Source: Chondrosia reniformis (taxonomy: Eukaryota > Porifera > Demospongiae > Chondrillida > Chondrillidae). From it: a DNA stretch of 64,000 nucleotides. The stretch lies in contig OX359198.1 in assembly GCA_947172415.1 (NCBI GenBank), positions 1,519,401 through 1,583,400 of the forward strand. Direction: 5' to 3'. The translations under genes and the position numbers were made by a program. Shown in pieces: positions 1,226 to 29,933 of the stretch (position 1 is the stretch's first letter; every line of letters begins with the position of its first letter). The notes below the pieces were generated by a model. It was not told the origin of the DNA. It saw only the letters and a list, made by a program, of their open reading frames with translations, and made no database searches.

Positions 1226-4136
1226 CTAGCTCACTTCTGATGCACAATCTTCTGGAGTTCTACCCTCAAGATCTTTCTTGTTCACATCAGCATTATGCTG
1301 AATCTACATTGATATTTGAATATGAAGTCAGTACTGGTTTAGGTTTGTACGTGCCTGGTATTTTTAATGATATTCACCACATAGTAAATATGTTTAATAC
1401 TATTCATGATAACGACATAATGACATAATCACAGAACATACGCACATAATATAATACTGTAAAATTGTAGAACATATATAGAGTGCATATGATACAAACT
1501 ACAATTCAATTATCATAGTTTGGCATTTAAAGACATTCATTAATATAACAGACTCTAATGTATAGTGAATATGGAAGGAACTGGGCCTAGCAAAAATCAT
1601 GTAATACAGTATTAATTCATTGCTTGTCACACTGCACACTGAAACCAGCCATTTGGCATAACAATGCAAACACAACAACAATAAGATGTACCCACAGATA
1701 TTTTGAAGTCTTTTTGAAGACTAGCAATTTTATGACATGTACTCTATATGTCAATACATAATTAAAAATATCTCAATTTTTCAATTACAAAGTTGGTAAA
1801 TATTTAATGTAAAAGGGTCAATCATAAACTTAGGAAAAACATAAAACTAGTAATCCAATGTTTGAAACACATTGCTTACTAGTAATTCACATGTCTTAGC
1901 ATGTCCTCGCTGGGATGCCTCATGTAATGGAGTTTGTCCATCACTATCCACAGGATCTTCTAGACTGCCATGTTCTAACAATACTTTGGTAACTTGCACC
2001 TATTTAAAGATAAAAGAATACACTAATATAATACAGCATTGCATCAAACTGATTGAATATAGTAGTTATATCTTGCAAATTGTGAAGGAACATGGCAATC
2101 AAGGTGATTGGCTTTTAATACTGTCAGTTTACATTAAATTGGATTACAATAAAGAGATTCTAGCTAAAGTAGTCAGAAAATGTTACATTGTCCCATATTA
2201 CATGGTATATCAACTGTATATACGTACTTTGAATAGAAAACACTAATTATATAAAACACTTACAGTTCTAGCATATTGAAGTGGTATCTTGTTCCACCTG
2301 TCCTCCTTGTTCACATCAGCTTTGTGTTTCAACTATGAAATCAATATACACATAAACAACAATAACAAAACCTTACAAAACAAACATTCATACAATACTC
2401 ACTTACCAATAGTTGACATGTCTCAGCATCTCGTCTTTCAGCTGCCTGATGTAATGGAGTCTGTCCAGAACTATCCACAGGATCTACTTGACTGCCATGT
2501 TCTAACAATACTTTGATAACTTGCACCTATTTAAAGATAAAAGAATACACTTAGTCTAACACAATACAGCATTGCAGTTATATCTTGCAAATTGTGAAGG
2601 AACATGACAATCAAGGTGATTGGCTTTTAATACTGTCAGTTTACATTAAAATGGATTACAATAAAGAGATTCTAGCTAAAGTAGTCAGAAAATGTCATAT
2701 TGTTCCATATTACATGGTATATCAACTGTATGTACGTACTTTGAATAGAAAACACTAATTATATAAAACACTTACAGTTCTAGCATATTGAAGTGGTATC
2801 TTGTTCCACCTGTCCTCCTTGTTCACATCAGCTTTATGTTTCAACTATTAAATCAATATACACATAAACAACAATAACAAAACCTTACAAAACAAACATT
2901 CATACAATACTACACTTACTAGTAGTTGACATGTCTCAGCATCTCCTCTCTTAGCTGCCTCATGTAATGGAGTTTGTCCAGAACTATCCACAGGATCTCC
3001 TTGACTGCCATGTTCTAACAATACGTTGGTAACTTGCACCTATATAATGATTAAAGAATACACTAATACAATACAGCATTGCATCAAACCTGATTGAATG
3101 TAGCAGTTTTATTATGCAAATTGTGAAGAAATATATGGCAATATGACAAATAGAAAGAAATAGAAAGAAATAGAAAGCACTAATACAAAAAACACTTACA
3201 GTTTTAGCATAGTGAAGTGGTATCTTATTCCTCTTGTTCTTCTTGTTCAAATCAGCTTTATGTTTCAGCTATGAAAGCAATATACACATAAACAACAATA
3301 ACAAAACCTTACAAAACAAACATTCATACAATACTACACTTACCAGTAGTTGACATGTCTCAGCATCTCCTCTCACAGCTGCCCAATGTAATGGAGTGAG
3401 TCCATAACTATCCACAGGATCTACTTGACTGCCATGTTCTAACAATACTTTGGTAACTTCCACCTGTATACAATGTGTATTTGAACATATAAATATACAT
3501 GACATTCAATATAAAAGGTTTACAACATAAGAAATTGATCTAGCTTGTTCCACTGCTTTTAGAAACAAGCTGCTCTAATAAACACATGAATACAGTCCAC
3601 TAATAAAACTGGTAATGTCGGCTAATAAAACAATTCTCTCATTTTAGTGATATACATAAGACACAATAGAAGATCACACAATCAGTTCTTACTTTAGCAT
3701 AATGTAATGGTACTCTATGATCATAATCCTTTACATGTACATCAGCACCCAACTCGAGGAGGTAGAGAACAATATCTAGGTCATTGTGTTGAACAGCTAC
3801 TAGAAGTGGAGTCCTTCTAGTTTCATCTATTACACTATTTACATTGCTCCTGTTAATAAGTTCTTGCATCTGAGAAAGAAATGTAATTCGACTGGTTTAC
3901 AAAAGAAGTCAGAAAGAAGAAGTGAGTAAGTTGTAACAGGATATACATTCGTACTACAAAAGGGAATTCTATTTCATACAAACCTTAAGCTTGTCGCCCA
4001 TCTTAATGCAATCAAAAGTATCATTATCCGGTCTCATTGGATGAATAAGTCGTTCCCTTCGTGAATCAGTTAGTTCTGGAGTAGTGAATCGTTCGTGGAC
4101 TGTGCTTGATTTCGCTGAGCTTGACTTATTTCCCAT
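1226..4136 (-). CDS. ANK-A: myristoylation-signal ankyrin-repeat protein, 10 exons
   Basis: Minus-strand exons, in order: 3984-4136, 3693-3869, 3344-3463, 3200-3268, 2920-3039, 2776-2844, 2407-2526, 2264-2332, 1880-1999, 1226-1303 (stop at 1226-1228). Every junction has GT/AG borders and every exon is a multiple of three in phase 0, predicting 364 residues. The start MGNKSSSAKS fits an N-myristoylation signal (Gly2, Ser6), suggesting membrane anchoring. Exon 2 encodes an ankyrin repeat (TPLLVAV..DIVLYLLELGADVHVKD). Four A exons (40 codons, TPLHEAA..GDAETCQLL) alternate with three B exons (23 codons, LKHKADVNKKD..IPLHYAKT); each A+B pair makes about two ankyrin repeats. The last exon (IQHNADVNKKD...CASEVS) is a B-type variant. 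Ankyrin arrays bind protein partners; the partner is unknown. The terminal exon could instead be read through from 1880, but the splice to 1303 aligns exactly with the other B exons. Confidence 0.85.
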
Positions 4137-8813: not shown

Positions 8814-10345
8814 GTAATGGTATAGGTAACAGTATGTAGGTAACTGTATGTAGGTAACAGTATAGGTAACTGTATGTAGGTAACAGTATAGGTAACTGTA
8901 TGTAGGTAACAGTATAGGTAACTGTATGTAGGTAACAGTATAGGTAAGTGTATGTAGGTAACAGTATAGGTAACTGTATGTCGGTAACAGTATAGGTAAC
9001 TGTATGTAGGTAACAGTATAGGTAACTGTATGTAGGTAACAGTATAGGTAACTGTATGTAGGTAACAGTATAGGTAACTGTATGTAGGTAACAGTATAGG
9101 TAACTGTATGTAGGTAACAGTATAGGTAACTGTATGTAGGTAATGGTATAGGTAACTGTATGTAGGTAACAGTATAGGTAACTGTATGTAGGTAACAGTA
9201 TAGGTAACTGTATGTAGGTAACAGTATAGGTAACTGTATGTAGGTAATGGTATAGGTAACTGTATGTAGGTAACAGTATAGGTAACTGTATGTAGGTAAC
9301 AGTATAGGTAACTGTATGTAGGTAACAGTATAGGTAACTGTATGTAGGTAACAGTATAGGTAACTGTATGTAGGTAACAGTATAGGTAACTGTATGTAGG
9401 TAACAGTATAGGTAACTGTATGTAGGTAACAGTATAGGTAACTGTATGTAGGTAACAGTATAGGTAACTGTATGTAGGTAACAGTATAGGTAACTGTATG
9501 TAGGTAACAGTATAGGTAACTGTATGTAGGTAATGGTATAGGTAACTGTATGTAGGTAACAGTATAGGTAACTGTATGTAGGTAACAGTACAGGTAACTG
9601 TATGTAGGTAATGGTATAGGTAACTGTATGTAGGTAACGGTATAGGTAACTGTATGTAGGTAACAGTATAGGTAACTGTATGTAGGTAACAGTATAGGTA
9701 ACTGTATGTAGGTAACAGTATAGGTAACTGTATGTAGGTAACGGTATAGGTAACTGTATGTAGGTAACAGTATAGGTAACTGTATGTAGGTAACAGTATA
9801 GGTAACTGTATGTAGGTAACTGTATAGGTAACTGTATGTAGGTAACAGTACAGGTAACTGTATGTAGGTAATGGTATAGGTAACTGTATGTAGGTAACAG
9901 TATAGGTAACTGTATGTAGGTAACGGTATAGGTAACTGTATGTAGGTAACAGTATAGGTAACTGTATGTAGGTAACGGTATAGGTAACTGTATGTAGGTA
10001 ACGGTATAGGTAACTGTATGTAGGTAACTGTATAGGTAACTGTATGTAGGTAACAGTACAGGTAACTGTATGTAGGTAATGGTATAGGTAACTGTATGTA
10101 GGTAACAGTATAGGTAACTGTATGTAGGTAACAGTATAGGTAACTGTATGTAGGTAACAGTATAGGTAACTGTATGTAGGTAACAGTATAGGTAACTGTA
10201 TGTAGGTAACGGTATAGGTAACTGTATGTAGGTAACAGTATAGGTAACTGTATGTAGGTAACAGTATAGGTAACTGTATGTAGGTAACAGTATAGGTAAC
10301 TGTATGTAGGTAACAGTATAGGTAACTGTATGTAGGTAACAGTAT
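8811..10345. repeat. 26-bp minisatellite rich in splice-donor-like motifs
   Basis: About 59 copies of a 26-bp unit near GTAGGTAACAGTATAGGTAA plus CTGTAT, differing by scattered single substitutions. Each unit has two TAGGTAAC or TAGGTAAT motifs, close to a 5' splice site. The array starts exactly at the end of the last acyl-CoA ligase exon, so the founding unit may have been an exon-intron junction. The 553-codon minus-strand frame through it is an artefact of a stop-free repeat. Confidence 0.97.
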
Positions 10346-11147: not shown

Positions 11148-13920
11148 TTAGATTGTTGCTATGAACTGATCTATTCTATCAGCAAGTTCTTCATGACATC
11201 CATGAGTGCGGTCTTCTCTCAGAGCATTTGAGAGAGCTTTGAGTTTAGCTAAACTTGGGTCATTGTTGAGGAGAATGTATAGGTTGGTATTGGCACTACG
11301 TCGATCTAGACTATGCACCATTTTCTCCAGGTCATCAATCTCCAGCACTTTACTCTGTTGCAAATATACGCCAATGCGACGTACATCACAAAACGATCGA
11401 AAATAATCCAAAAAGTGATTGCTTGACAAAAATGTCCTTATCTTCCTTTCAGTACTACAGCTAACTGCGTAAATGAAAATAAAATACGTACTCAATTCTA
11501 TAATATGAAATTTACAGTATAACACAAGACAGCAAAACAATATGATATATCAAATGAATATACGTAGATCGACTATAAATGTAATAAGACACTACTATAT
11601 ATAGCAAATTCCAAGAGAACTAAAAATGATCAATTGACATACCTGCAGCACCAGATTGTCCTTTGCTGACTGGCTCAAACCAAATTCTAGCTCCTTCACC
11701 AAATGCCCTTCTTTTCTCAAGTTGACAGACTAGGCATTCATTAACTTTGTCCTCTTTAACAAGAGCCAGGTGAGCTGGTTTGGTGGAGTCACATCTGCAC
11801 AGGAATCCAACTTCAAGCTGTGGTTTCTTGTCTGGAGACATTCCATCCATCATCTTGGAACTGATTTCCTGAATAGTGGAGTGGACAATGTGGCGAATTT
11901 CTTTGCATCGCTCATGCAGCTCAGAGTAACGATCACTTGGACTCTTCTCTGGATAGAATAAACTGCTGCACTCAACTTGTAACTCTAATCGACCTGGTTT
12001 CTCCATCAGGTAGACATTGAGACCACCTGAGATGAAGGCAGCTGTAGTCTGATCACAGTTTGCAGTCTGAGGCTTCAGGTTGCTTCCCTTAGCTTGCTCT
12101 GAGAGCTGTACCACAAGACGACAGAATATGCCTCTGGGTAGGTCAAGGAGGTCAATCCTGCCATGGCTTCCAAGGTATTTGTATGCAAAGCAGAGATTCT
12201 CCACTGATCCACGTTCAGGAACCTTCACTTTCCCATAGGGCAAGACTAGAGGCATGAAGTACTCTTCAGGATCAGATTGGTACTTTGCTGCTAGTCCTAA
12301 GTGGTGAATGACCTCCAGCAGCCATTTTTTGGGAATTGCTTCGTTGATGCCTAATTCATTGAAGAGCTCTTCAAAATCTGCTTGACGAATGATGCCTGAA
12401 CGATGGAATAACTGGGCTGCATCACTATCAAAATAGAGTGGATCCTTGAAGTGCACTGTCAGCAGGTTTGCAAATTCACTATACAGAGCTGTAATATCAG
12501 TGCAGATCCACTCTCGTGAGGTTTCGGTGTGGTCAAAAAATGCATAGAACCCAAGCATATGAAATAGGGTCAGCATTCCTTCAAACTGGTGATCAGCATC
12601 TTCATGATCCAGGTAGCTGCTTTGGATACAGAACTCCTTCAAGTCGTGGAATTGAATAAACTTTTGTTCATTCTTGCAGGTGATGACGTAAAGGAGAAAC
12701 CACGTCAATGGCATTTCTAGCTCAAAGCCATTGGTGGATCCCTTCTTTGAAGCACTGAGGATTTTGGATCTGAGTGCTTTAAGAGTCGCAAGATCCTCTT
12801 CTGAAGGAGGTCCATCTTTGCTCATCATGTTGTTGATGATAAAAGGCCATGAAACAGACTCTGGGCGATCATGGCTGTCTTTGAGAGAATCAGCCAGTGT
12901 ACGTCTAGAGGGTACATCATTCTTCACTATGAAGGGGTGATACGGCTTTCCTCCTAAATGATTTAGTTGGGTGACGATTGATTCCAATCTTGCTTCCCGA
13001 TCTTCTCTCAGTAATGAAAAGAGCTTATCCTTGAAGGTGCCCACCAGAAATATTTGTAGCTCTGGTTGACGGCTCAGTATACTCTTGATCCTTGGATCCA
13101 TTGGCTTTGAGGCAGCAGTGTAGATGCTGGAGAACGATCTCAACATTAGATCAATGGATGTAAGGCCATGATCCGGTGGGAGCTTGTAGGTTTGGCCATC
13201 TTGGGATCTAAAGGTCATATTGGCTTCTTGCTTAAGATCTTCTGATGCATTGAAGACTTGGATGTAAGTACAAGGCATTGTGAGGAGAAAGGGGAGGGAG
13301 TCTTGGAAAGATGGCTGACCTCCACTGTCCAAGAAGTGGATAAAGGTTGCTTCTTTCAGATTAAGGTCGCTGAGATCTTGCTTTCCCAACACTTCATCTC
13401 GAATATCCTGGAGTCGCTTCACTTGAGGAGCAACAGTGGAGTCTTCTTGAGCATCATCAGCCAACCCAACTGGTTCGGTGGTTGGGGTTACTGGTCTGTC
13501 CTGAGTAGACTCTGAAATGGGAAGAGGAGACGGAATGACCTGTGTGGAAGAAATTGCTTCGACTTTTGGATCTTCTTCATCAGGAGGAATGCTTGGTGTT
13601 GGGTAAGTAGAGTGCTCCTCGTAATCTCCCTGATTAGTACATGTGCGTACCAATGTCTCCATCACCTCTTCATCAACTGGAATCCAGTCTGCATCACTTC
13701 CTGTGGCAAGGTAGTTGGTGGCAATAACCACCTCCGGAGATTCAGCGACACCAGTGCTAATCTTCACCTCCTTTGACTTGCCATAGACAAGGTTGTACTT
13801 CAGTGAGGACTTTCCCACTTCTGGGGATCCACAGAAGATGGCACGAACTACCTTAACTATAACTGATCCACGCTTATCAATAGCCTTCTGGTAGTCCTCA
13901 ATCCAAGTTGGATTAGTCAT
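11148..13920 (-). CDS. ROCO-like NTPase with C-terminal CARD-like death fold
   Basis: Exon 1 is 11643-13920 and exon 2 is 11148-11464. The 178-bp intron has GT/AG borders and is in phase 1. The sum is 864 residues. Visible motifs: Walker A GSPEVGKSS (31-39), a switch/G3-like DSGGQ (198-202), and a G4-like GTFKDK (294-299). Between G1 and G3 lies a Pro/Glu/Ser-rich linker of about 90 residues. Residues about 400-590 resemble a COR domain (winged-helix LTWFLLYV..., LHxLGFYAFF, VLPYGK). Exon 2 encodes an all-helical segment (CDVRRIGVYLQQSKVLEIDD ... ALREDRTHGCHEELADRI) typical of the CARD/death-fold group. Together this suggests a signalling GTPase that recruits death-fold adaptors in innate immunity or cell death. 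Start chosen at the ATG 13920; an acceptor CTTTAG lies 9 bases before it, and an in-frame upstream exon (14895-14945) is possible, so the N-terminus may be longer. Confidence 0.75.
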
Positions 13921-14402
13921 TGTATCAGTCTAAAGGATAGAATTAGAAGTACCCAAATTAGAATATTTATAATTACTATTCATATGTATATATACATTGA
14001 AACTTAACTAGGACATACAAACCAGTTTGGGATAACAAGTAAGCTGGCTTACAATCTACACATTCACTGTAGCCAAATTATTCTATACACCTGTACTGTT
14101 CCTTATACTTGTCTATAATCAGTCACAACCGGTATAGCTAGAGACAAACATTAAAATTATTTTTTTTATTTTGAACAGTCTTCCCTGTACGTATAAAAGA
14201 TGTTGCAAGGTTGTTGAATAAATTTCACACCAGAATTAATCTAATAATAAATTTAAAACCTAACTTATATAGGTGACGATGTCTGTAGATTTAACTGTTT
14301 CAAGACCATACGTATGGTTCAAATTCTGTAGCTTGTGAAAATTGTTGCACACCCAGTGGATTGCTGTTATTATTCTAATGATTATATAAAAATGACCATC
14401 CT

Positions 14403-14690: not shown

Positions 14691-14894
14691 ATTTTTATAG
14701 ATAGTCAATATAAATAATACTTAGAACAGTACTGGATTTACTAATACAATATTTAGAACAAAGCAGAGATAATAATCAAACACCAACATTACATAAGAAG
14801 ATTGGTTAGTGGGAACTTGGTTTTGAAAACTATACAGAATTACTTTTAAACTCACATTCAAAGTTGATTGGACAATAAGCTCTTCTTTCATTAC

Positions 14895-14945
14895 AGTTGA
14901 CTCCAGACGGAGGTCACTTTCTGATTCGGATTCTACTTCAGCTAT
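14895..14945 (-). other. Possible upstream exon of the NTPase gene
   Basis: A 51-nt segment lies between acceptor AAATTCAG and donor GTAATG on the minus strand. It encodes an acidic stretch (IAEVESESESDLRLEST) and would join in frame with the sequence before the NTPase start (TDTMTNPTW). Splice sites and phase fit, but the exon is short and low in complexity. Transcript evidence would decide. Confidence 0.3.
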
Positions 14946-15027
14946 CTGAATTTGATAGGAAAAACAGTGTTCTTCTCAACATGAATTCGAATGAAAAATA
15001 TAATTTGACCTTAATTACGTATATGTG

Positions 15028-15139
15028 CTAACTGAACTACATGGGTGATACCTGAGCTACATGGGTGATACCTGAGCTACATGGGTGATACCTGAGCTAC
15101 ATGGGTGATACCTGGGTTACATGGGTGATACCTGAGCTA
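15028..15139. repeat. 20-bp minisatellite array (copy 3)
   Basis: Five to six units of the same 20-bp repeat as 1-284, at the left edge of duplicon B. It is interrupted at a TA by the Tc1-type relic at 15140-15752 and resumes at 15753. Confidence 0.93.
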
Positions 15140-15752
15140 CTGTACTGATTAAAGATTTCTAGCCACTAAATCGTGTTTCGACTGCAGACGATGCACAGCA
15201 CTCATGCGGACATTGTACGAGCACCGTGTAGACATCACTAATTTACACCTAATTTTACACATTCTATATGCCTAACATCGCACCTAAGAATCATAGTCTA
15301 CTATACTGTGAGAAGTTATCTCTAAAAAACCTCGAAAACCGATCGAAATTGCCGTGAAATGGTTGGAATCGATCTTCCACTCCTATGTTCGTCTTCAAGC
15401 GGTGCTGTTGCCAACGATATATCCATTTTCTTACCGTATCCTGTGTTGTTTCTTTTCCTTCCGCCTTTAATACCTTGACGATAGATGATACATTTTCTCC
15501 ATCGATCCACAAACGAATTATTCGCTCTCTGAAATAGGAGGATAACGTAGACATTGCCGACTCGATAGCGCTTTAAACTTTGCTTCTATGATAGCGGCCA
15601 GGTGTTAGATAATGTGTAAAATGTAACTATTACTGATAATTACATATTATGGTGACGATTTTCTTTATGTCTGTGCGAGTATCGTACCAGCATCGTACAC
15701 TTATTGCGTGCTAACTCTGTGTTACACGGCAAGAAATTTTTAATCACTACTG
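15140..15752 (-). mobile_element. Tc1/mariner relic inserted into the minisatellite
   Basis: A 613-bp element flanked by TA on both sides (15138-15139 and 15753-15754). Its ends are 25-bp imperfect inverted repeats with 21 of 25 matching, sharing TGATTAAA.ATTTCT.GCC. Inside, on the minus strand (15291-15554), lies the start of a transposase: a helix-turn-helix (SYFRERIIRLWIDGENVSSI, RKWIYRWQQ). It frameshifts after about 55 residues, and the catalytic region is absent. It is a non-autonomous deletion derivative. Confidence 0.85.
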
Positions 15753-16100: not shown

Positions 16101-19100
16101 CTAGCTCACTTTTGATGCACAATCTTCTGGAGTTCTACCCTCAAGATCTTTCTTGTTCACATCAGCATTTTGCTGAATCTACATTGATATTTGAATATGA
16201 AGTCAGTACTGGTTTAGGTTTGTACGTGCCTGGTATTTTTAATGATATTCACCACATGGTACATATGTTTAATACTATTCATGACAACGAACATGTGTGA
16301 CATAATAACAGAACGTACGTACTCTATATAATACTAGAACATATATACGTAGAGTGCATATGATACAAACTACAATTCCATTATCATATTTCGGCATTTA
16401 AAGACATTCATTAATACAACAGACTCTAATAAGAATTCCTCTGCAAAAATCCTGTAATACAGTATTAATTCATTGGTTGTCACACTGCACACTGAAACCA
16501 GCCATTTGTCATAATAATGCAAACACAACAACAAGATGTGCCCACAGATATTTTGAAGTCTTTTTGAAGACTAGCACTTTTATGACATGTACTCTATATG
16601 TCAATACATAATTAAAGATATCTGAATTACAAAGTTTGGTAAATATTAGATATAAAAGGATCAATCATAAACTCAATCATAACACATTGCTTACTAGTAA
16701 TTCACATGTCTCAGCATCTCCTCGCTGGGATGCCTCGTGCAATGGAGTTCGCATGTAATCATCCACAGGATCTATTTGACTGCCATGTTCTAACAATACT
16801 TTGGTAACTTCCATCTATTTAAAGATTAAAGAATACACTAATACAATACAGCATTGCATGAAAACTCATCGAATTTAGTAATTATATCTTGCAAATTGTG
16901 AATAAATATGGCAATCAAGGTGATTGGCTATTAACACTGACAAGGCAGTATACAAAAAGATTACAATAAAGAGATTCTAGCTAAAGTAGTCAGAAAATGT
17001 CACATTGTTCCACATTATATGGTATATCAACTGTAGCAAGCACTTATTACATAAAACACTTACAGTTTTAGCATAGTGAAGTGGTATCCTATTCTCCTTG
17101 GCCTTCTTGTTCACATCAGCTTTATGTTTCAACTATTTAATCAATATACACATAAACAACAATAACAAAATCTTACAAAACAAATATTCATACAATACTA
17201 CACTTACCAGTAGTTGACATGTCTCAGCATCTCCTCTCTCAGCTGCCCTATGTAATGGAGTTTGTCCAAAACCATCCACAGGATCTACTTGACTGCCATA
17301 TTCTAACAATACTTTGGTAACTTCTACCTGTATAAAGATACACTAATACAATACAGCATTGCATCAAAACTGATTGAATGTAGCAGTTATATCTTGCAAA
17401 TTGTGAAGAAACATGACAATCAAGATGATTGGCTATTAACACTGACAAGGCAGTATACATTAAAATGGATTACAATAAAGAGATTCTAGCTAAAGTAGTC
17501 AGAAAATGTCACATTGTTAAACAATATATGGTATATCAACTGTATGTAGAATAGAAAGCACTAATTACATAAAACACTTACAGTTTCAGCATATTGAAGT
17601 GGTATATTACTCTCATTGTTCTTGTTCACATCAGCTTTATGTTTCAGCTATTAAATCAATATACATATAAACAGTAATAACAAAACCTTACAAAACAAAC
17701 ATTCATACAATACTACACTTACCAGTAGTTGACATTTCTCAGCATCTCCTCTAATAGCTGCCCAATGTAATGGAGTCCATCCATATATATCCACAGGATC
17801 TACTTCACTGCCATGTTCTAACAATACTTTGGTAACTTCCACCTAATTAAAGATTAAAGAATTCACTAATATAATACAGCATTGCATCAAAACCCATTGA
17901 ATGTAGTAGTTATATCTTGCAAATTGTGAAGAAACATGGCAATCAAGGTGATTGGCTATTAACACTGACAAGGTAGTATACATTAAAATGGATTACAATA
18001 AAGAGATTCTAGCTTAAGTAGTCAGAAAATGTCATATTGTTGAAACAGTAGACAGCACTAATTACTTAAAACACTTACAGTTTTAGCATATTGAAGTGGT
18101 ATATTACTCTCCTTGTCCTTCTTGTTCACATCAGCTTTATGTTTCAGCTATTAAATCAATATACATATAAACAGTAATAACAAAACCTTACAAAACAAAC
18201 ATTCATACAATACTACACTTACCAGTAGTTGACATTTCTCAGCATCTCCTCTCTCAGCTGCATTATGTAATGCAGTTTGTCCATATCTATCCACAGGATC
18301 TACTTGGCTGCCATGTGCTAACAATACGTTGTTAACTTCCATCTATTTAAAGATTAAAGAATACACTAATATAATACAGCATTGCATTAAAACTGATTGA
18401 GTGTAGTAGTTATATCTTGCAAGTTGTGACGAAACATGGCAATCAAGGTGATTGGCTATTAACACTGACAAGGTAGTATACATTAAAATGGATTACAATA
18501 AAGAGATTCTAGCTAAAGTAGTCAGTAAATGTCACATTGTTGAAACAGTAGACAGCATTAATTACTTAAAACACTTACAGTTTCAGCATATTGAAGTGAT
18601 ATATTACTCTCCTTGTCCTTGTTCACATCAGCTTTATGTTTCAACTATTAAATCAATACACACATAAACAACAATAACAAAACCTTACAAAACAAATATT
18701 CACAAAATACTACACTTACCAGTAGTTGACATGTCCCAGCATTTCCTCTCTCAGCTGCATTATGTAATGGAGTTTGTCCAAAACCATCCACAGGATCTAC
18801 TTGACTGCCATGTTCTAACAATACTTTGGTAACTTGCACCTATATAAAGATTAAAGAATACACTAAAAACACAATATAGCATTGCATCAAAACTGATTGA
18901 ATGTAGTAGTTATATAAGGTTGCGAATAAACATGGCAATCAAGGTGATTGGCTATTAACACTGACAAGGTAGTATACAAAAAGATTACAATAAAGAGATT
19001 CTAGCTAAAGTAGTTAGAAAATGTCACATTATTCTATTTTATATGTCAACTGTATATAGAATAGAAAGCACTAATTACATAAATCACTTACATTTTTAGC

Positions 19101-22100
19101 ATATTGAAGTGGTATCTTATTCCTCTTGTCTTTCTTGTTAACATCAGCTTTATGTTTCAGCTATTAAATCAATATACACATGAACAACAATAACAAAACC
19201 TTACAAAACAAGTTTTCATACAATACTACACTTACCAGTAGTTGACATGTCCCAGCATCTCCTCTTTCAGCTGCCTTATGTAATGGAGTTTGTCCAAAAC
19301 CATCCACAGGATCTACTTGACTGCCATGTTCTAACAATACGTTGTTAACTTGCACCTATATAAAGATTAAAGAATACACTAATAACACAATATATCATTG
19401 CATCATAACAGATTAAATGTAGTAGTTATATCTTACAAGTTGTAAAGAAACATGGCAATGAAGGTGATTGGCTATTAACACTGACAAGGCAGTATACATT
19501 AAAATGGATTACAATAAAGAGATTCTAGCTAAAGTAGTCAGAAAATGTCCCATTGTTAAACAATATATGGTATATCAACTGTAGCAAGCACTTATTACAT
19601 AAAACACTTACAGTTTTAGCATAGTGAAGTGGTATCCTATTCTCCTTGTCCTTCTTGTTCATATCAGCTTTGTGTTTCAGCTATTAAATCAATATATACA
19701 TAAACAACAATAACAAAACCTTACAAAACAAACATTCATACAATACTACACTTACCAGTAGTTGACATGTCCCAGCATCTCCTCTCTCAGCTGCATTATG
19801 TAATGGAGTTTGTCCATCACTATCCACAGGATCTACTTGACTGCCATGTTCTAACAATACTTTGGTAACTTGCACCTATATAAAGATTAAAGAATACACT
19901 AAAAACACAATTATCATTGCATCAAAACTGATTGAATGTAGTAGTTATATAAGGTTGCGAATAAACATGGCAATCAAGGTGATTGGCTATTAAACACTGA
20001 CAAGGTAGTATACAAAAAGATTACAATAAAGAGATTCTAGCTAAAGTAGTTAGAAAATGTCACATTATTCTATTTTATATGTCAACTGTATATAGAATAG
20101 AAAGCACTAATTACATAAAACACTTACAGTTTTAGCATAGTGAAGTGGTATCCTATTCCCCTTGTCCTTCTTGTTCACATCAGCTTTATGTTTCAGCTAT
20201 GAAATCAATATATACATAAACAACAATAACAAAACCTTACAAAACAAACATTCATACAATACTACACTTACCAGTAGTTGACATGTCTCAGCATCTCCTC
20301 TCTCAGCTGCATTATGTAATGGAGTTTGTCCAAAACCATCCACAGGATCTACTTGACTGCCATGTTCTAACAATACTTTGGTAACTTCCACCTGTTTAAT
20401 GATTATAAAGAATACACTAATAACACAATATAGCATTGCATCAAAACTGATTGAATATAGTAGTTATATAAGGTTGCGAATAAACATGGCAATCAAGGTG
20501 ATTGGCTATTAACACTGACAAGGCAGTATACATTAAAATGGATTACAATAAAGAGATTCTAGCTAAAGTAGTCAGAAAATGTCACATTGTTCCACATTAT
20601 ATGGTATATCAACTGTAGCAAGCACTTATTACATAAAACACTTACAGTTTTAGCATATTGAAGTGGTATCTTATTCTCCTTGTCCTTCTTGTTCACATCA
20701 GCTTTATGTTTCATCTATTAAATCAATATACATATAAACTACAATAACAAAACCTTACAAAACAAACATTCATACAATACTACACTCACCAGTAGTTGAC
20801 ATGTCTCAGCATCTCCTCTCTCAGCTGCATTATGTAATGGAGTTTGTCCATGGCAATCCACAGGATCTACTTGACTGCCATGTTCTAACAATACGTTGGT
20901 AACTTGCACCTATTTAAAGATTAAAGAATACACTAAAAACACAATATAGCATAGCATCAAAACTGATTGAATGTAGTAGTTATATAAGGTTGCGAATAAA
21001 CATGGCAATCAAGGTGATTGGCTATTAACACTGACAAGGCAGTATACATTAAAAAAAGTAGTTCGAGTTTAAAAACTTGTGGGGTTGCCGTCCCCCGAAT
21101 TTACTCCAACTACTTGGCCGCATTGTTGGGCTTTTGATATATTATTCTTAATTCTAACAATTGAGGACGCTTAAGTGTCTTGAAAATTATAAATAGCAAC
21201 AGAAAAGCTTCGTTAACTAAAGCTTCCTGAACGCCGCCATTTGCAAAAACGATGTATTGACGTATATATTAAGTGTTAAAATAGTTGCGTATGAACTCGT
21301 ATTATACATATATCTGTAACATAAAGCCATACATAAATCGCGTTATGAAAACAATAGAGGGGGCTACCTGCAGCAGCCCCTAATAAATTACAATAAAGAG
21401 ATTCTAGCTAAAGTAGTCAGAAAGTGACACCATGTCCAACATTATATGTAAACTGTATATATGTAGAATAGAAAGCACTAATTACATAAAACACTTACAG
21501 TTTTAGCATATTGAAGTGGTATCTTATTCCCCCTGTCCTTTTTGTTCACATCAGCTTTACGTTTCAACTATTAATCAATATACATACGTATAAACAACAA
21601 TAACAAAACTTTAAAAAACAAGTATTTCGAGTTTAAAAACTCGTGGGGCTGTAGTCCCCAAATTAACTTGAACTACTTGACTGCATCATTGGGCTTTATA
21701 TACATATTTTCTTAAGTCTAATGATTGAGGATGCTTCACTGTTCAGTGTCCTGAACATTATAAATAGCGACAGAAAAGCTTCGTTAATTAAAGCTTCCTG
21801 AACGCCGCCATTTGCAAAACGATGTATTGACTTATAATAAAGTGTTATAATAGTTGCGTATCAACCCGTATTATATACAGTACAAGTTACAATATACTAA
21901 GGTAATCTAAATGCAGTACAAGTTACAATATACTAAGGTAATCTAAATACAGTACAAGTTACAATATACTAAGGTAATCCAAATAAATAAATAAATAATT
22001 CATATGGCTCATTTTAAATTAAGGGATTTTTGATTTAGGTCTCCATTTGGTAGAAAATGGAGGACAAAAATCTGCATATAAAATGCCATAGGACTATAGA

Positions 22101-25100
22101 AAAGCTATAGAAAATTTATATTGAAACCAAGTGTTATATTGATAAAAAATTTCAATTGGTCAGATCACTGTGAAACCGACATATATCATGGTACATGTGT
22201 AAGTAAAACGTCTGATGAAGTTTTGCTTAATTAAAGTTGCAAAATAATCAAGATATAATGAAGAATGCAAGCTTATGATTGCACAATTTGGTGATGTATT
22301 GTGATGTTTCTCTAGTGCGTCACCAACACTCTCATACGTTTCAACCCGGAGGTCGTCATCAGTAATACAGGAATGGGAATATCAAGTAGGAAATTAGTAA
22401 TTTCATGTTGCTGACGCTCAACAAGGCTTTATTCTCATAATGATCACAACAAACACTCCTTATTCCTACACATGGACAAGTAAAATATGAACAAAATACA
22501 TAAGAAGAGAAGAGAGACCTTAAATTACCAAAGTTTTAATACAGTCGACTAAACGAATTTCTTTTGCAACAATATAGGGACAATTCTGCCTCAAACTTAA
22601 CGGGAACGTATCTATCCTTCGCTACAATTCGCTTATTCAGTAGCTCCTTCTCGTAGGAGAGCGTCGACTTGTCATAGCTGTTTACAAAAGGGATGATCTT
22701 CTTTAGCAACGATGAGGTGACGTTTTCGCAATGTCACATGATAATCCATTAAATATGTAGGCAGCGACATATGAGAGTGTTGGTGACGCACTAGAGAAAC
22801 ATCACAATACATCTACAGATTGCAAAATCATAACCTTGAATTCTTCATTATATCTTGATTATTTTGCAACTTATAATTAAGCAAAACTTCGCCAGATGTT
22901 TGTCATATACATGTACCATGATATATGTCGGTTTCACAGTGATCTGAACAATTGATAATTTTATCAATATAACACTTGGTTTCAATATAAAATTTCTATA
23001 GCTTTTCTATAGTCCTATGGTATTTTATATGCAGATTTTTGTCCTCCATTTTCTACCAAACGGAGACCTAAATCAAAAATCCCTTAATTTAAAATGAGTT
23101 TTATACCCTAAACTTTATGTATTATGCCTATTCTGTTGCTAGGTACTTTCCTGGAGCCATATGAATTATTTATATTATTTATTCATTTATTTATTTATTT
23201 ATTTGGATTACCTTAGTATATTGTAACTTGTACTGTATATATATATATATGTAACCGTCCATGCGAAAAGGGGCATTTTCGCGTATGCAACGGAATTGCG
23301 TTTTTGCTATCATTTGAAAGGGTTTCTGTAGTACTAGTGAATGGTGCAATCGGAAGTGTCATAGCTGACCGATCCGAAGTTCCGACACTTTGAAACAGAA
23401 CCGTTGCCAAACGTAATATGTAAAACAGCTTTACTTCTGTTTAGTTAATAAAATGACATATTTGATTGCGCAATCTCAAGCAAATCAACTCAAAACTATC
23501 GAACGATAATGATATTCACCGTTCCGTATAGAGAACAAAATGGCGTATTTCCGGTAGCTTCTATTTAATAAGATCGGATTTATCGCACAAAGAAGACCGA
23601 AATAACAACGGCGACATTGGGAAAGGTTAGATTAACGAATATTTAATGATATTAAAAGAGAATCGCACTTTTGACTATTTTGCCACGACGTTTTTAAAAC
23701 ACTTGTATTGAACATATTGCTACAGCGCGAATATGCCCCTTTTCGCATGGACGGTCACATATATCTTTCCGTAACAACGCAATCTGTAAATGAAAAGAGG
23801 CTGCCTGTAGCCCCTAATTACAAAACAAACATTCATACAATACTACACTTACCAGTAGTTGACATGTCTCAGCATCCCCTCTCTTAGCTGCATTATGTAA
23901 TGGAGTTTGTCCATAACTATCCACAGGATCTACTTGACTGCCATGTTCTAACAATACTTTGGTAACTTCCACCTATTTAAAGATTAAAGAATACACTAAT
24001 AACACAATATAGCATTGCATCAAAACTGAATGAATGCAGCAGTTATATCTTACAAATTGTGAAGAAACATGGCAATCAAGGTGATTGGCTATTAACACTC
24101 AATCTGACAAGGCAGTATACAAAAAGATTACAATAAAGAGATTCTAGCTAAAGTAGTCAGAAAATGTGACATTGTTCCATATTATATGTCAACTGTATTA
24201 TAGAATAGAAAGAACTAATTACATAAAACACTTACAGTTTTAGCATATTGAAGTGGTATCTTATTCCTCCTGTCCTTCTTGTTCACATCAGCTTTATGTT
24301 TCAGCTATTAAATCAATATACACATAAACAACAATAACAAAACCTTTCAAAACAAACATTCATACAATACTACACTTACCAGTAGTTGACATTTCTCAGC
24401 ATCTCCTCTCTTAGCTGTCCAATGTAATGGAGTTTGTCCATAACTATCCGCAGGATCTACTTGGCTGCCATGTTCTAACAATACTTTGGTAACTTGCACC
24501 TATTTAAAGATTAAAGAATACACTAATAACACAATATAGCATTGCATCAAAACTGCATGAATGTAGTAGTTATATCTTGCCAATTGTGAAGAAACATGGC
24601 AATCAAGTTGATTGGCTATTAACATTGACAAGGTAGTATACAAAAAGACTACAATAAAGAGATTCTAGCTAAAGTAGGCAGAAAATGTCACGCTGTTCAA
24701 CATCATATGGTGTATCAACTGTAGCAAGCACTAATTACTTAAAACACTTACAGTTTCAGCATAATGAAGTGGTATCTCATTCCCCTTGTTCTTCTTGTTA
24801 ACATCAGCTTTGTGTTTCAGCTATTAAATCAATATACACATAAACAACAATAACAAAACTTTACAAAACAAACATTCATACAATACTACACTTACCAGTA
24901 GTTGACATGTCTCAGCATCTCCTCTCTTAGCTGCCCAATGTAATGGAGTGCATCCATCACTATCCACAGGATCTACTTGACTGCCATGTTCTAACAATAC
25001 TTTGGTAACTTGCACCTACGTATATTAAGAATACACTAATACAATACAGCATTGCATCAAAACGGATTGAATGTATATCTTGCAAGTTGTGAAGAAACAT

Positions 25101-28100
25101 GGCAATCAAGTTGATTGGCTATTAACACTGACAAGACAGTATACAAAAAGATTACAATGAAGAGATTCTAGCTAAAGTAGTCAGAAAATGTCACATTGTT
25201 CCACATTATATGGTATATCAACCGAGCAAGCACTTATTACATAAAACACTTACAGTTTTAGCATATTGAAGTGGCATCATATTCCTCTTGTCCTTCTTGT
25301 TCACATCAGCTTTATGTTTCAACTATTAAATCAATATACACATAAGCAACAATAACAAAACCTTACAAAACAAAACATTCATACAATACTACACTTACCA
25401 GTAGTTGACATGTCTCAGCATCTCCTCTCTTAGCTGCCCAATGTAATGGAGTTTGACCTAACCTATCCACAGGATCTACTTCACTGCCATGTTCTAACAA
25501 TACTTTGGTAACTTCCTCCTATTTAAAGATTACAGAATACACTATTGCAATACAGCATTGCATCAAAACTGATTGAGTGTAGTAGTTATATCAGGTTGCG
25601 AATAAACATGGCAATCAACGTGATTGGCTATTAACACTGACAAGGCAGTATACAAAAAGATTACAATAAAGAGATTCTAGCTAAAGTAATCAGAAAATGT
25701 AATATTGTTCAACATTATATGGTTACCTACGTATATCAACTGTAGAAAGCACTAATTACGGTACAGGTCAAAAGAAACTTGGCGATTTTTGCATTTTTCC
25801 GCTGTTGGACAACGCCACCGTCTGCAGTTGGCCACGCAGCTGTCTGAGGGATTTTGGGAGAGCAACTGAGGAAAGCTGCAAGTGCGGAAATTTGCGAATA
25901 CGTACATACGTACATATATATATGCGTTTTTTAGACACGTAGACTTCTAATGTTCCTTGTCCGTATGCGTACATGGTATATATACGTCCGTAACGAATTT
26001 ATAAATGACGAATACAATTCGTAGTCTATAATCGTCATCCTCGTAATCGTAATCCTTCAACTACGTACGAAATGCCAGTCGATCATTACTCAAGGACAAT
26101 AGAAATTGAATCGATAATCGATTACATATGCCACATAGATGTACATATAACGTAAAAAAACTAAAATTCATTGTTTGCTTCTTGGAATGTTTTCTTTGTT
26201 TTCCTGCATGCTTCATCAATAGCATTCCTCATCTCCTTTTCAGCCTGCAGATTCGTCTCAAATCTGTCTAAGGGAAATTTTTTTAAGCAAACTGTATAAA
26301 TTGCCTTTACTGTCGCTGGATTGAGAGGTCTCTTCCCTAGAACTCCTCTACAATTACTTGCTTGCCTTACTGCTTCAGGAAATATTCTGTTACACAATCT
26401 CCCAGCCAAATTTCTTCTGGACTTGCAGCACTGCATTGCCTGCATAATTACCTCTTCTGGAATTACATTTTGCCCTGAGTCCTCAGTCCTTGGGTGCTTG
26501 TTGGTCATATCCTGCAGTGGAAACATGTATTGGTGGCTGTTTGGTACCTGCAGTGGAGGGTTAACAACAGCTAGTGGTTCATAATAAGGAGATGAAGAAA
26601 ATCCATCGAAGAAGGAGGTGCTATTTGCTGGTTCAGGTATGCAGCTGTTGCTATTTAGACCTTGCGCCACAATCTTTTCTTTGACTTCCTCCATAGATCT
26701 CTCAAAAGCATCCATACGAGCAAGTAATCTGGAATAATGTCTTTCTGTAGTATCTCTTAAATCAGATGCTGTGTCTTTTAAATCCGATACCATATCAATT
26801 AGCTTCTGAATAATAGCTTCAGACTGAGTACAGTTATGTTGCCTTTCTTTGGGCTCAGAGGTTGCAATTGGGCTACCCATTTCAAAGAGGAAATCATCCT
26901 CAGCTGTGTCTTTGGCTCTTGATGAGGTAGACTGAACTGGGATTTCGGGAGATGTCAGCATATCTTCCACTATAATCGCATCATAAACTCTTCTTGACTT
27001 TCCCCAAATCACGCTAACAGTTTTTCCAGGAGCTACAGTTCCTTCTTTGATACTGTTTCTTGTTACATACGATCTTTTGCCAGCTGCCCTTCCTTCGATC
27101 CATTCTACCATAATTTTGCTTGCCATCTCACTCTTAATTGCTTCTTCTAATCGCAATGATTCAAAACGCCCAAATGCATGTACGAATATTTATAGAATAT
27201 TACAGGATACTCATGTTATTTAATTCGCCAATCAAAACTCTACAATAAAACACTGAGGTCCGCCAAAAGAATCTGTAAAAATCCTCAGAATATAGGTGTT
27301 AATCTGCGAATCTATACGAATTCCAAGGATTTTCACAGATTCTTTCGGCGGACCTCAGCGTTTTATCGTAGAGTTTTGATTGGCGAATTAAATAATATGA
27401 GTATCCTGTAATATTCTATAAATAATATGAATAATGATAATGAATAATACGTATGAGTTTCCAGTAATAAACTATGCCATTAACTAAGTATCAAAGAGAA
27501 AGAATTGTGTCTCTCCATCTCCAAAGTAAAGGGTCAGCATCCAATATTTTAAAACTTTTAGCAATTGAAAGAATCTATACAACAAAGCAAACTGTTTTGA
27601 ATACTCTTGCCAGATGGAAGGAAACTGGAAGCTGTGAAGATCGACCTAAAAGTGGTCGTGTGACGAAAATACCCAAGGTGTATTATAAGTATATAGATGA
27701 TAAGATGGTAGTCAATGATGAACTGACAGCCTCCGATTTGATGGACCTATTGCAAAGAAAATTTGGTGAGACATCTATAGCGTACTCTGTTAGAACCATA
27801 GCAAGGGCTAGACTAGACCTCGGATGGACCTTCACGACTGCACGATATTGCCAAGCAATTCGAGATGCCAACAAAGAAAAACGATTGGAATGGTGCAAGG
27901 AAAGACTAGCAGAGCAGGAGCAGTTCAATGATGTCATCTTCACCGATGAGTCAACCTTTCAACTTGACAGGCACAGGAGGAAATGCTTTAGGAAACAAGG
28001 AGCTCCCAGGAAGCTCAAATACAAGCACAAGCATCCTCCTAAAGTGCATGTATGGGCTGGTATATCAAGGAGAGGAGCTACTTCTATTGTTATATTTGAC

Positions 28101-29933
28101 GGGACGATGACAGCCACAAGATATGGAGACATCCTTACAGCCTCACTGCTATCCTTTATTAGGGAGAAGTATCCTCAAAGTCATCGCCTCTATCAGGATA
28201 ATGACCCAAAACATACAAGCCATTACATTCAAACTTATTTCATGGATAACAGAGTGAGATGGTGGAAAAGTCCAGCAGAGAGTCCGGATCTAAATCCCAT
28301 AGAGAAAGTTTGGGGTTCAATGAAGACCTTTCTCCGTGATCGTCACAAGCCGAAGAATCTTGGTGAGCTAAAAGAAGGCATCAAACTTTATTGGAAAAAG
28401 ATGACACCAGTTTGCTCAAGGTACATAGATCACCTTGAGAACGTTCTACCGATTGTGGTAGAAGTAAACGGGGAACCTTCGGGGCATTAATAGGAATTTA
28501 TGTACACTTTTTAGACTAAGTTTCTTTATTATACGTACACTTTTTAGACTAAGTTTCTTTATTATACGTACGTACGTATGTATACATTGTATTAATTATT
28601 TCATTGTTGACTACATACTTTCGTATTATTAATTTTGATACTTATACGTAGGTAAAGATCGAAATGCTCGACATACGTAATGTATCAATTTTCTTCGTAG
28701 ATTGCATGGCTTCCCTATCGACACCTTACGTACGTACGTATTGTTCGTTTGTTTACAAACATCGCTGATGATACCCGCAGATGATGATTTGGCAAACCGC
28801 AAATGGCTGTACAGCAGTACGCAGAAAATTTGCGGATTCCCTTACAAACCCTTGCGGAAATCGCCAAGTTTCTTTTGACCTGTACCGTACTTAAAACACT
28901 TACAGTTTCAGCATAATGAAGTGGTATCTCATTGCACTTGTCCTTCTTGCTCACATCAGCTTTGTGTTTCATCTATTAAATCAATATACACATAAACAAC
29001 AATAACAAAACCTTACAAAACAAATATTCATACAATACTACATTTACCAATAGTTGACATTTCTCAGCATCTCCTTTCTTAGCTGTCCAATGTAATGGAG
29101 TTTGTCCATAACTATCCACAGGATCTACTTGGCTGCCATGTTCTAACAATACGTTGGTAACTTGCACCTGTAGACAATGTGTACTTGAACATATAAATGT
29201 ACATGACATGACTTAAGTGTGATGCATAAGTGCCAAAGGTCGAGGGCGGATATCACTTAGCTTCACACTTGAGTGTGGTATAATTAATATATATCACGTA
29301 TGATAAGTAAACAGGAATAGGCCTACTGGCATATAACATTTATCACTAATTCAAATGTGAAATGTAACACCCCAGATATCACCCAGTTGCCCTGGTAACG
29401 CGATATATAAAAGGTTTACAACATAAGAAATTGATCTAGCTTGTTCCATTGCTTTTAGAAACAAGCTGCTCTTATAAACACATGAATACAATCCACTAAT
29501 AAAACTGGTAATGTCGGCTAATAAAACAATTCTCTCATTTCAGTGATATACATAAGACACAACAGAAGATCAAACAATCAGTTCTCACTTTAGCATAATG
29601 TAATGGTACTCTATGATCATAATCCTTTACATGTACATCAGCACCCAACTCAAGGAGGTAGAGAACAATATCTAGGCGGTTGTGTTCAACAGCTACTTCA
29701 AGCGGAGTGCTACTAGTTCCATCTATTACACTGTTTACATTGCTCTTATTTATAAGTTCTTGCATCTGAGAAAGAAATGAAATTCGACTGGTTTATAAAA
29801 AATGTCAGAAAGAAGAAGTGAGTAAGTAGTAACAGTATAAACATTCGTACTACAAAAGGGAATTCTATTTCATACAAACCTTAAGCTTGTCACCATTCTT
29901 AATGCAATCAAAAGTCTCGTTCTCCATTTTCAT
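16101..29933 (-). CDS. ANK-B: 30-exon ankyrin-repeat protein with 14 tandem exon-pair modules
   Basis: Minus-strand exons: 29880-29933, 29589-29765; then A/B pairs 29048-29167/28904-28972, 25399-25518/25254-25322, 24896-25015/24752-24820, 24380-24499/24236-24304, 23853-23972/21499-21567, 20790-20909/20646-20714, 20272-20391/20128-20196, 19756-19875/19612-19680, 19236-19355/19092-19160, 18720-18839/18579-18644, 18223-18342/18079-18147, 17723-17842/17582-17647, 17208-17327/17064-17132; then 16695-16814 and the terminal exon 16101-16178. All A exons are 120 nt. B exons are 69 nt, except two of 66 nt (18579, 17582) with one codon deleted. All junctions are phase 0 with GT/AG sites and no stops, giving 959 residues and about 28 further ankyrin repeats after exon 2. 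The start is MKMENETFDC: the ANK-A-like myristoylation start is removed by a ~94-bp deletion. The high repeat count and near-identical modules suggest a flexible binding scaffold; the ligand is unknown. Confidence 0.85.
21055..21388. mobile_element. ~330-bp dispersed element, copy 1 (ANK-B intron)
   Basis: Inserted between the 21499 B exon and the 20909 A exon. It breaks the normal intron text (GTATACATTAAAA ... TTACAATAAAGAG). It begins near TTCGAGTTTAAAAAC and ends with GGGCTACCTGCAGCAGCCCC-TAA, a terminal GC-rich hairpin. A related copy lies at 21618-23820. There is no ORF. TTA/TAA at the borders would suit a Harbinger-type target, but this is not firm. Confidence 0.65.
21873..23240. mobile_element. 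Foldback element with ~450-bp inverted arms
   Basis: Long inverted arms run from about 21873-22345 and 22765-23240 and pair over most of their length (for example CTAGTGCGTCACCAACACTC and its complement, and GATTTAGGTCTCCATTTGG). The termini read ACAGTACAAGTTACAATATA. On the left this terminal motif is present three times in tandem, about 41 bp apart. The centre (about 22345-22765) is unique, with no transposase. A lone terminal-like motif also occurs near 47170. Confidence 0.8.
23250..23759. mobile_element. MITE with ~34-bp terminal inverted repeats
   Basis: Both ends carry TGT[A/G]ACCGTCCATGCGAAAAGGGGCAT[T/A]TTCGCG in inverted orientation (two mismatches in 34), flanked by TA within an AT microsatellite. 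The 510-bp interior has no coding capacity. TA target and short TIRs suggest mobilisation by a Tc1/mariner-type transposase. Confidence 0.85.
26161..27156 (-). CDS. BEN-domain protein encoded inside the transposon
   Basis: An intact 331-residue ORF. The N-terminal ~65 residues form a compact basic domain (VEWIEGRAAGKRSYVTRNSI, VSVIWGKSRRVYDAIIVEDM). Residues about 110-165 form a likely coiled coil (IIQKLIDMVSDLKDTASDLR and following heptads). Residues about 215-325 match the BEN domain pattern (RRNLAGRLCNRIFPEAVRQA, SNCRG, GKRPLNPATVKAI), a DNA- and chromatin-binding fold found in BEND/Insensitive proteins and some DNA viruses. The ORF sits between transposon TIRs, divergent from the transposase, so it is likely an accessory factor (DNA binding, silencing avoidance or targeting) or a captured host gene. 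The function is inferred. Confidence 0.8.
   Translation of the reverse strand: MRLEEAIKSEMASKIMVEWIEGRAAGKRSYVTRNSIKEGTVAPGKTVSVIWGKSRRVYDAIIVEDMLTSPEIPVQSTSSRAKDTAEDDFLFEMGSPIATSEPKERQHNCTQSEAIIQKLIDMVSDLKDTASDLRDTTERHYSRLLARMDAFERSMEEVKEKIVAQGLNSNSCIPEPANSTSFFDGFSSSPYYEPLAVVNPPLQVPNSHQYMFPLQDMTNKHPRTEDSGQNVIPEEVIMQAMQCCKSRRNLAGRLCNRIFPEAVRQASNCRGVLGKRPLNPATVKAIYTVCLKKFPLDRFETNLQAEKEMRNAIDEACRKTKKTFQEANNEF
27187..27424. promoter_or_regulatory. Central palindrome between the two transposon genes
   Basis: Arms of about 97 bp (roughly 27189-27285 and 27325-27422) are inverted with only a few mismatches, around a ~39-nt loop. Shared text includes AATTCGCCAATCAAAACTCT and GAGGTCCGCC. The two start codons lie 30-50 bp outside each arm (27156 minus, 27474 plus), so each gene gets the same upstream sequence. 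CCAAT-type boxes (GCCAATCAAAA) sit in each arm. It is likely a symmetrical divergent promoter. Confidence 0.7.
27474..28490 (+). CDS. Tc1/mariner DD34E transposase
   Basis: A 338-residue intact ORF. The N-terminal paired-type helix-turn-helix region (about 1-110: YQRERIVSLHLQSKGSASNI, RPKSGRVTK) binds the TIRs. The catalytic domain has FTDES (first Asp), YQDNDPKHTS (second Asp) and SPDLNPIEKVWG (Glu). Counting from the first Asp of QDND to the Glu gives 34 residues between, i.e. DD34E as in the Tc1 group. Length is typical for the family. The enzyme cuts and pastes DNA at TA sites, consistent with the flanking TA duplication. No stops or frameshifts are visible, so it may be active. Confidence 0.95.
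   Translation: MPLTKYQRERIVSLHLQSKGSASNILKLLAIERIYTTKQTVLNTLARWKETGSCEDRPKSGRVTKIPKVYYKYIDDKMVVNDELTASDLMDLLQRKFGETSIAYSVRTIARARLDLGWTFTTARYCQAIRDANKEKRLEWCKERLAEQEQFNDVIFTDESTFQLDRHRRKCFRKQGAPRKLKYKHKHPPKVHVWAGISRRGATSIVIFDGTMTATRYGDILTASLLSFIREKYPQSHRLYQDNDPKHTSHYIQTYFMDNRVRWWKSPAESPDLNPIEKVWGSMKTFLRDRHKPKNLGELKEGIKLYWKKMTPVCSRYIDHLENVLPIVVEVNGEPSGH
29210..29406. mobile_element. ~195-bp dispersed element in ANK-B intron 2
   Basis: Present in ANK-B and absent from the equivalent ANK-A intron (3500-3512), giving a clean presence/absence pair. It includes AGGCCTACTGG..ATAACATTTATC and CACCCCAGATATCACCC. A relative lies in the MDM1-like gene at about 61330-61470. It has no coding capacity; probably a SINE or MITE. 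Confidence 0.7.

Follow-up and report, generated by a model that had tools for sequence, protein, structure and literature searches.

A tandem array of frame-safe ankyrin modules in a candidate Roc-COR-like GTPase and CARD-fold receptor family of the sponge Chondrosia reniformis

A 64,000-nt stretch of chromosome 10 of the sponge Chondrosia reniformis (contig OX359198.1, positions 1,519,401 to 1,583,400; the whole stretch is hereafter the window) carries a long array of ankyrin-encoding exon pairs, raising the question of what kind of gene this array belongs to and whether its length changes in evolution. A reading made earlier from the sequence alone (the sequence-only reading) had described it as an ankyrin gene running from 29933 to 16101. 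The present analysis places the array at the front of a longer gene whose later exons encode a Roc-COR-like GTPase and a predicted CARD fold, the first of 13 tandem copies (g1, the window gene, to g13) lying on one strand at 1.29-1.55 Mb of chromosome 10 (C10). These genes probably belong to a family of intracellular receptors that signal through a CARD, with a recognition array that is turned over by germline gain and loss of modules under diversifying selection.

The 14 exon-pair modules of the sequence-only reading were all found again on the minus strand, each with an A exon of 120 nt (14/14) and a B exon of 69 nt (12) or 66 nt (2). Each of these 28 exons is open and in phase 0 at both ends, with AG before it and GT after it as expected for GT-AG introns. 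This openness is not due to chance, since among 1874 overlapping 120-nt windows taken from second introns of all 13 arrays only 98 are open. One module encodes 63 residues, divided into a 33-residue and a 30-residue ankyrin repeat, and a 3-residue gap is apparent in the alignment to designed ankyrins; the Ank families matched far above cut-off, and the list of PDB matches was headed by designed ankyrins and ankyrin-1. The claim that lengths change only by whole codons extends to the paralogues, in which the A exons with both splice sites present (n=87, one broken g9 A exon without acceptor being omitted) measure 120 nt (82), 123 nt (2), 126 nt (2) or 96 nt (1) and the B exons (n=86) measure 69 nt (83) or 66 nt (3), all differences being multiples of 3. 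Among second introns shorter than 700 nt, 35 of the 55 non-modal lengths are off by a non-multiple of 3. The matching introns previously noted are present in most modules, but four introns are enlarged (B1-A2, 3.4 kb; A5-B5, 2.3 kb; B5-A6, 0.6 kb; A14-B14, 0.5 kb).

The gene opens on the minus strand with exon 1 (29880..29927; MENETFDCIKNGDKLK), which has a phase-0 GT donor, followed by exon 2, an N-terminal ankyrin cap (29589..29765, phase 0), both matched in 13/13 cluster genes. The ATG codon of exon 1 is absent from g2, g7, g9 and g10, each of which has an in-frame ATG upstream; the start at 29933 proposed earlier corresponds to an in-frame ATG two codons ahead of the modelled start, and either is usable. 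The modules follow, also on the minus strand, at 28904..29167 (module 1; A 29048-29167, B 28904-28972), 25254..25518 (module 2; A 25399-25518, B 25254-25322), 24752..25015 (module 3; A 24896-25015, B 24752-24820), 24236..24499 (module 4; A 24380-24499, B 24236-24304), 21499..23972 (module 5; A 23853-23972, B 21499-21567, separated by the 2.3-kb intron), 20646..20909 (module 6; A 20790-20909, B 20646-20714) and 20128..20391 (module 7; A 20272-20391, B 20128-20196). The second half of the array comprises 19612..19875 (module 8; A 19756-19875, B 19612-19680), 19092..19355 (module 9; A 19236-19355, B 19092-19160), 18579..18839 (module 10; A 18720-18839, 66-nt B 18579-18644), 18079..18342 (module 11; A 18223-18342, B 18079-18147), 17582..17842 (module 12; A 17723-17842, 66-nt B 17582-17647), 17064..17327 (module 13; A 17208-17327, B 17064-17132) and 16110..16814 (module 14; A 16695-16814, with a divergent closing B exon at 16110-16178).

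The stop at 16101, taken earlier as the end of the gene, sits past the splice donor of the closing B exon, which is kept in 13/13 cluster genes (gtgagc in 12, gtgagt in one). From this donor the last B exon is joined in frame, in the gene model, to a 90-nt linker exon (14856..14945, phase 0 at both ends), matched in 10/13 genes with donor gtgagt and acceptor CAG in all ten, then to the Roc-COR-like GTPase exon (11643..13929; P-loop GSPEVGKSS, DSGGQP), present in 12/13 genes, and to the C-terminal CARD-fold exon with its stop codon (11148..11464), all on the minus strand. Because a conserved donor precedes the stop and the chain continues in frame, an end at 16101 was rejected as the best reading, and the whole gene model has 33 exons and 1852 aa and runs to 11148. 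The encoded protein would consist of the N-terminal cap, 14 modules, linker, GTPase and CARD fold, and its array would be the recognition half of an intracellular receptor. The array is real, but the label 'ankyrin gene' understates the identity of the gene, since the sequence-only reading overlooked both its GTPase-CARD portion and the family of tandem copies.

The motifs GSPEVGKSS and DSGGQP, which we take to be G1 (P-loop) and G3, give the GTPase exon the motifs of a Roc GTPase, and residues G34, G39, K40, D201, G203, G204, Q205 and P206 of this exon are invariant in 6/6 diverse members. Pfam matched Roc at E <=0.1 in 4/6 members (best 9.1e-5; window member 0.11, below cut-off) and COR-A in 5/6 (best E 4.7e-4; window member below the curated cut-off), the cut-offs in this six-member scan being known for the first member only. 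The NCBIfam scan of the six members gave weak small-GTPase-type matches only, and a PDB sequence search with the GTPase exon gave no match at E up to 1, nor up to 10. Pfam found no NACHT or NB-ARC in the GTPase exon (window member, E <=1; six members, E <=0.1), though very divergent ones could escape, and an NLR label was therefore not adopted. The C-terminal exon is predicted to encode a death fold of CARD type, its predicted model best matching CARDs, with other death-fold families still possible from the match list; Pfam CARD was matched weakly in 1/8 members of this exon (E 0.046), and its best PDB profile match, also weak, is CARD8 (E 0.066). The gene model has no kinase before the Roc-COR-like part, and Pfam found none in two of the three open reading frames (ORFs) of at least 150 aa at 30000-64000, where small upstream exons could escape.

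The sequence-only reading had proposed a search for related genes, and this search, covering 117,379,552 bases in 15 contigs, found the 13 tandem copies on C10 and GTPase exons at no fewer than about 58 loci genome-wide. From the window side, the 13 genes have 14, 4, 5, 2, 6, 5, 8, 8, 2 (one broken), 6, 8, 3 and 17 A exons, so that arrays range from 2 to 17 modules. The complete set of parts is present in 8/13 genes (g1, g2, g3, g5, g8, g10, g11 and g13, with g11 lacking one B exon). In g4 the GTPase frame is split by a frameshift and the linker was not found; a close CARD exon is matched only in part in g6 and g7; linker, GTPase and CARD were not found in g9; and g12 has no linker found and a divergent CARD match. 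The GTPase loci, at least about 58 (59 scored rows of 212 candidates, 57 of the 59 rows being stop-free), include 18 at >=89% identity on C10, C8, C14 and C6 and 40 at 34-53%, and the C-terminal exon has at least 150 genome matches (150 scored of 321 candidates). A subfamily on C4, with about 41% identity in the GTPase exon, has the identical 120+69 phase-0 exon-pair design (3 A and 2 B exons within 4.5 kb), and its genes, grouped by position, have at least 6, 14, 4, 3, 2, 0 and 8 A exons ahead of each GTPase exon.

Several observations concern other members of the family. At C8:1781240-1789918, an apparent pseudogene has shortened A exons and a GTPase exon interrupted by two stops, and the gene beside it has at least 7 modules. 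Three GTPase exons at C6:2472376-2517750 are 93-94% identical to that of the window, with no ankyrin module among the matches listed, and these genes may carry a different N-terminus. Many relatives of the CARD-fold exon form clusters on C7 and C3, and no C7 GTPase row is among the 59 scored of 212 candidates; other architectures may include the domain. The sister gene g2, also on the minus strand, was confirmed to have 4 modules at 1235..3463 (low-coordinate starts: A 3344, 2920, 2407, 1880; B 3200, 2776, 2264, 1235), preceded by exons 1 and 2 at 3693..4028 (exon 2 3693-3869; exon 1 3984-4028 as matched), while its linker, GTPase and CARD exons are situated beyond the window edge. In both window genes a 20-bp minisatellite (ACATGGGTGATACCTGAGCT; 1-285, 758-954, 15005-15160) occurs after the closing B exon and ahead of the exons that follow, and other paralogues have comparable repeats past their closing B exon. 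A helix-turn-helix ORF at 15291-15572 on the minus strand (HTH_28, E 3.5e-4, below cut-off), possibly a transposase remnant, is located in the intron that precedes the linker, and a 26-bp minisatellite of 59 copies lies downstream of the CARD exon at 8811-10345.

That array length changes by whole modules among paralogues without a frame break is well supported. Counting exact runs inside the arrays revealed repeats of 1179, 966 and 957 bp in g13, displaced by 3, 4 and 2 modules respectively, and one of 1114 bp in g8, displaced by 2 modules. These duplicates cover roughly two modules together with their introns. Complete units are identical in four pairs (g13 m12=m15, m9=m11 and m4=m8; g8 m2=m4). 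Shorter exact repeats are present in g11 (338 bp), g7 (307 bp), g6 (215 bp) and g10 (166 bp), and g11 lost one B exon through a 118-bp deletion that kept the frame. Identity and tree comparisons covered 65 of 87 units (regular B exon, 700 bp or less), and the tree groups units by gene, with 25 label changes against a shuffled mean of 44.7 (minimum 40, 200 shuffles), or 18 against 28.8 (minimum 24) without g13 and g8. The nearest unit belongs to the same gene in 49/65 cases, and mean unit identity is 0.938 within and 0.912 between genes, a modest difference. Recent exchange between genes was not seen, with 0 segments of >=300 bp at >=98% identity, and the longest exact block common to two arrays is 264 bp. 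Modules were presumably gained and lost by germline unequal exchange, with unequal crossing-over, replication slippage and gene conversion as candidate routes.

The modules also bear an excess of replacement changes, as estimated throughout by counting methods. The ratio of nonsynonymous to synonymous differences per site (pN/pS) was calculated on the 66 modules of exactly 120+69 nt, with 11 sites treated apart that are equivalent to the positions facing the ligand which are randomised in designed ankyrins (2, 3, 5, 13, 14, 33). In a study of fungal repeats, sites of this kind are assigned to the binding face of the ankyrin (PMC4986451). The overall pN/pS is 1.50, with pN 0.254 and pS 0.138 at the ligand-face sites and pN 0.069 and pS 0.056 elsewhere. 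On the intron tree, limited to the 58 of these modules with regular introns, omega reaches 2.11 at the ligand face (p 1.5e-4) against 1.32 at the other sites (p 0.04), a difference between site classes with p 0.013. Position 10 of repeat 1, which is outside the ligand-face set, changed most often, all 49 of its changes being replacements. When a single module was drawn per gene (500 draws, 12 genes), the values were 2.16 (1.23-4.33) at ligand-face sites versus 1.03 (0.75-1.67) elsewhere, and the window gene alone (11 modules) gave 2.07 at the six ligand-face positions, 1.62 at eight and 0.81 at the rest, or 1.20 overall. Divergence is 0.092 in second and 0.029 in first introns. As controls, the GTPase exon, which is under constraint, gave 0.47 (11 of the 12 genes with the exon, g4 being left out for its frameshift) and the CARD exon 0.71 (8 genes; single pairs 0.43-3.92).

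Under the receptor reading, germline unequal exchange among near-identical modules would add or remove whole modules with the frame unharmed, and selection would diversify the binding face. The array would bind a microbial or other non-self, foreign or altered-self ligand, binding would switch the GTPase and expose the CARD, and the exposed CARD would recruit death or immune adaptors, while germline module exchange would renew the specificities. More doubtfully, the family may form an open-ended CARD-signalling repertoire in which module number and order differ between individuals through germline exchange, perhaps widened by exon skipping; it would then parallel, in an early-branching animal and with other repeats, the ROCO system of brown algae.

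The locus could instead hold two co-duplicated genes, an ankyrin-array gene ending at 16101 and a separate downstream GTPase-CARD gene. Reading the last B exon past its donor gives VS and then a stop, the fourth codon of the GTPase exon is an in-frame ATG and the linker is missing from g4, g9 and g12, all of which fit such a split; the donor conserved throughout the cluster, the linkers with their flanking splice sites and the widespread GTPase exon argue against it, as do the ankyrin arrays on C8 and C4 that likewise precede GTPase exons, and two genes are unlikely here. Slightly less probable still is an old structural ankyrin scaffold whose module number drifts neutrally without a recognition role. 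In its favour, exact repeats of >=150 bp are absent from the array of the window gene itself, the excess in g13 (16 modules) is not confined to the binding face (1.94 at ligand-face sites versus 1.92 at the rest), and the exon structure is old enough to be common to the C4 subfamily. The first of these indicates that the window modules are older, so the frame-safe length change claimed by the sequence-only reading is evident as a recent process in the relatives and not in the window gene itself. Neutral drift is opposed by the ligand-face excess within the window gene alone, by its persistence in the one-module-per-gene draws and by the absence of silent changes at position 10 of repeat 1.

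Two further explanations concern the varying module number, and both are very improbable. Any A or B exon could be skipped in frame because all are symmetric phase 0, and such isoforms occur in brown-algal LRR-ROCO genes (PMC11378527), so module number might be altered chiefly among isoforms; gain and loss are, however, directly seen in the DNA of paralogues, and loss of A or B alone would disrupt the two-repeat register. That the identical modules of g13 and g8 are assembly artefacts is the least probable of all, even though near-identical tandem DNA is difficult to assemble, as most g13 units are separated by some substitutions, length also varies among arrays without recent duplicates, and the PacBio long-read assembly has a reported QV of 69.8 (PMC12181767).

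Elsewhere in the window, an ORF at 55226-55723 on the plus strand has a match to the Wnt family (E 7.1e-28), covering the C-terminal region of those proteins. An 827-aa ORF at 57635-60118 on the minus strand has RNA recognition motifs and a SPOC domain in Pfam and is presumably of the RBM15/SPEN type. Rfam and tRNA scans of the window gave no matches.

Among known systems, DAPK1 is an ankyrin-repeat protein. Its group is described as Roco proteins without leucine-rich repeats (LRRs), with a death domain, a kinase before Roc-COR and one human member; the sponge gene is likewise a candidate animal Roco gene without LRRs and with a C-terminal death-fold domain, but DAPK1 has a kinase and a death domain whereas the sponge gene model has a C-terminal CARD fold and no kinase found (PMC6337361). 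Brown-algal LRR-ROCO genes, proposed immune receptors, are reported to have symmetric repeat-sized exons (72 nt, phase 2), diversifying selection on the concave face and splice isoforms (PMC11378527). The sponge gene resembles them in joining a Roc-COR-like GTPase to a repeat array on symmetric repeat-sized exons, and combines these exons with a binding-face replacement excess as the shuffling-exon ROCO receptors do. It lacks the one-LRR-per-exon array of the brown-algal receptors: the algal genes are described as LRR-ROC-COR only, with one LRR per 72-nt phase-2 exon and alternative splicing seen (PMC11378527), whereas the sponge gene, from an animal, has two ankyrin repeats per 120+69-nt phase-0 pair and a C-terminal CARD fold. 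Fungal NLRs with ANK, TPR or WD repeats, in which ANK number is given as 7 to above 16 among isolates, share highly alike repeats, varying repeat number and positive selection on the concave face, but they have NACHT or NB-ARC in place of the Roc-COR-like domain, and their repeat number varies within species, in the sponge among paralogues (PMC4986451).

Within sponges, Amphimedon has large Death-like and TRADD-N families with ankyrins, proposed to sense invaders, a comparable expansion joining Death-like domains to ankyrin repeats; these are TRADD-N based with the Death-like unit N-terminal, and the passages describing them name no Roc-COR GTPase (PMC8195603). In Halichondria, receptor expression is reported to be specific to individuals (PMC8242945). 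A literature search of partial reach found no animal or sponge family joining ANK, ROCO and CARD, though one could exist, and found no account of tandem phase-0 ankyrin-repeat exons with unequal crossing. RNA-seq of the sequenced specimen (ERR10177766) and an alternate haplotype (GCA_947172445.1) are deposited (PMC12181767), and the main claims are therefore testable at once.

If the receptor reading is true, fungi, brown algae and sponges would have converged on the same arrangement, in which nearly identical repeats form a recognition array whose length shifts in whole units while its binding face is under selection. In the sponge, an animal whose microbial community is rich, this would also link the Roco family to CARD signalling.
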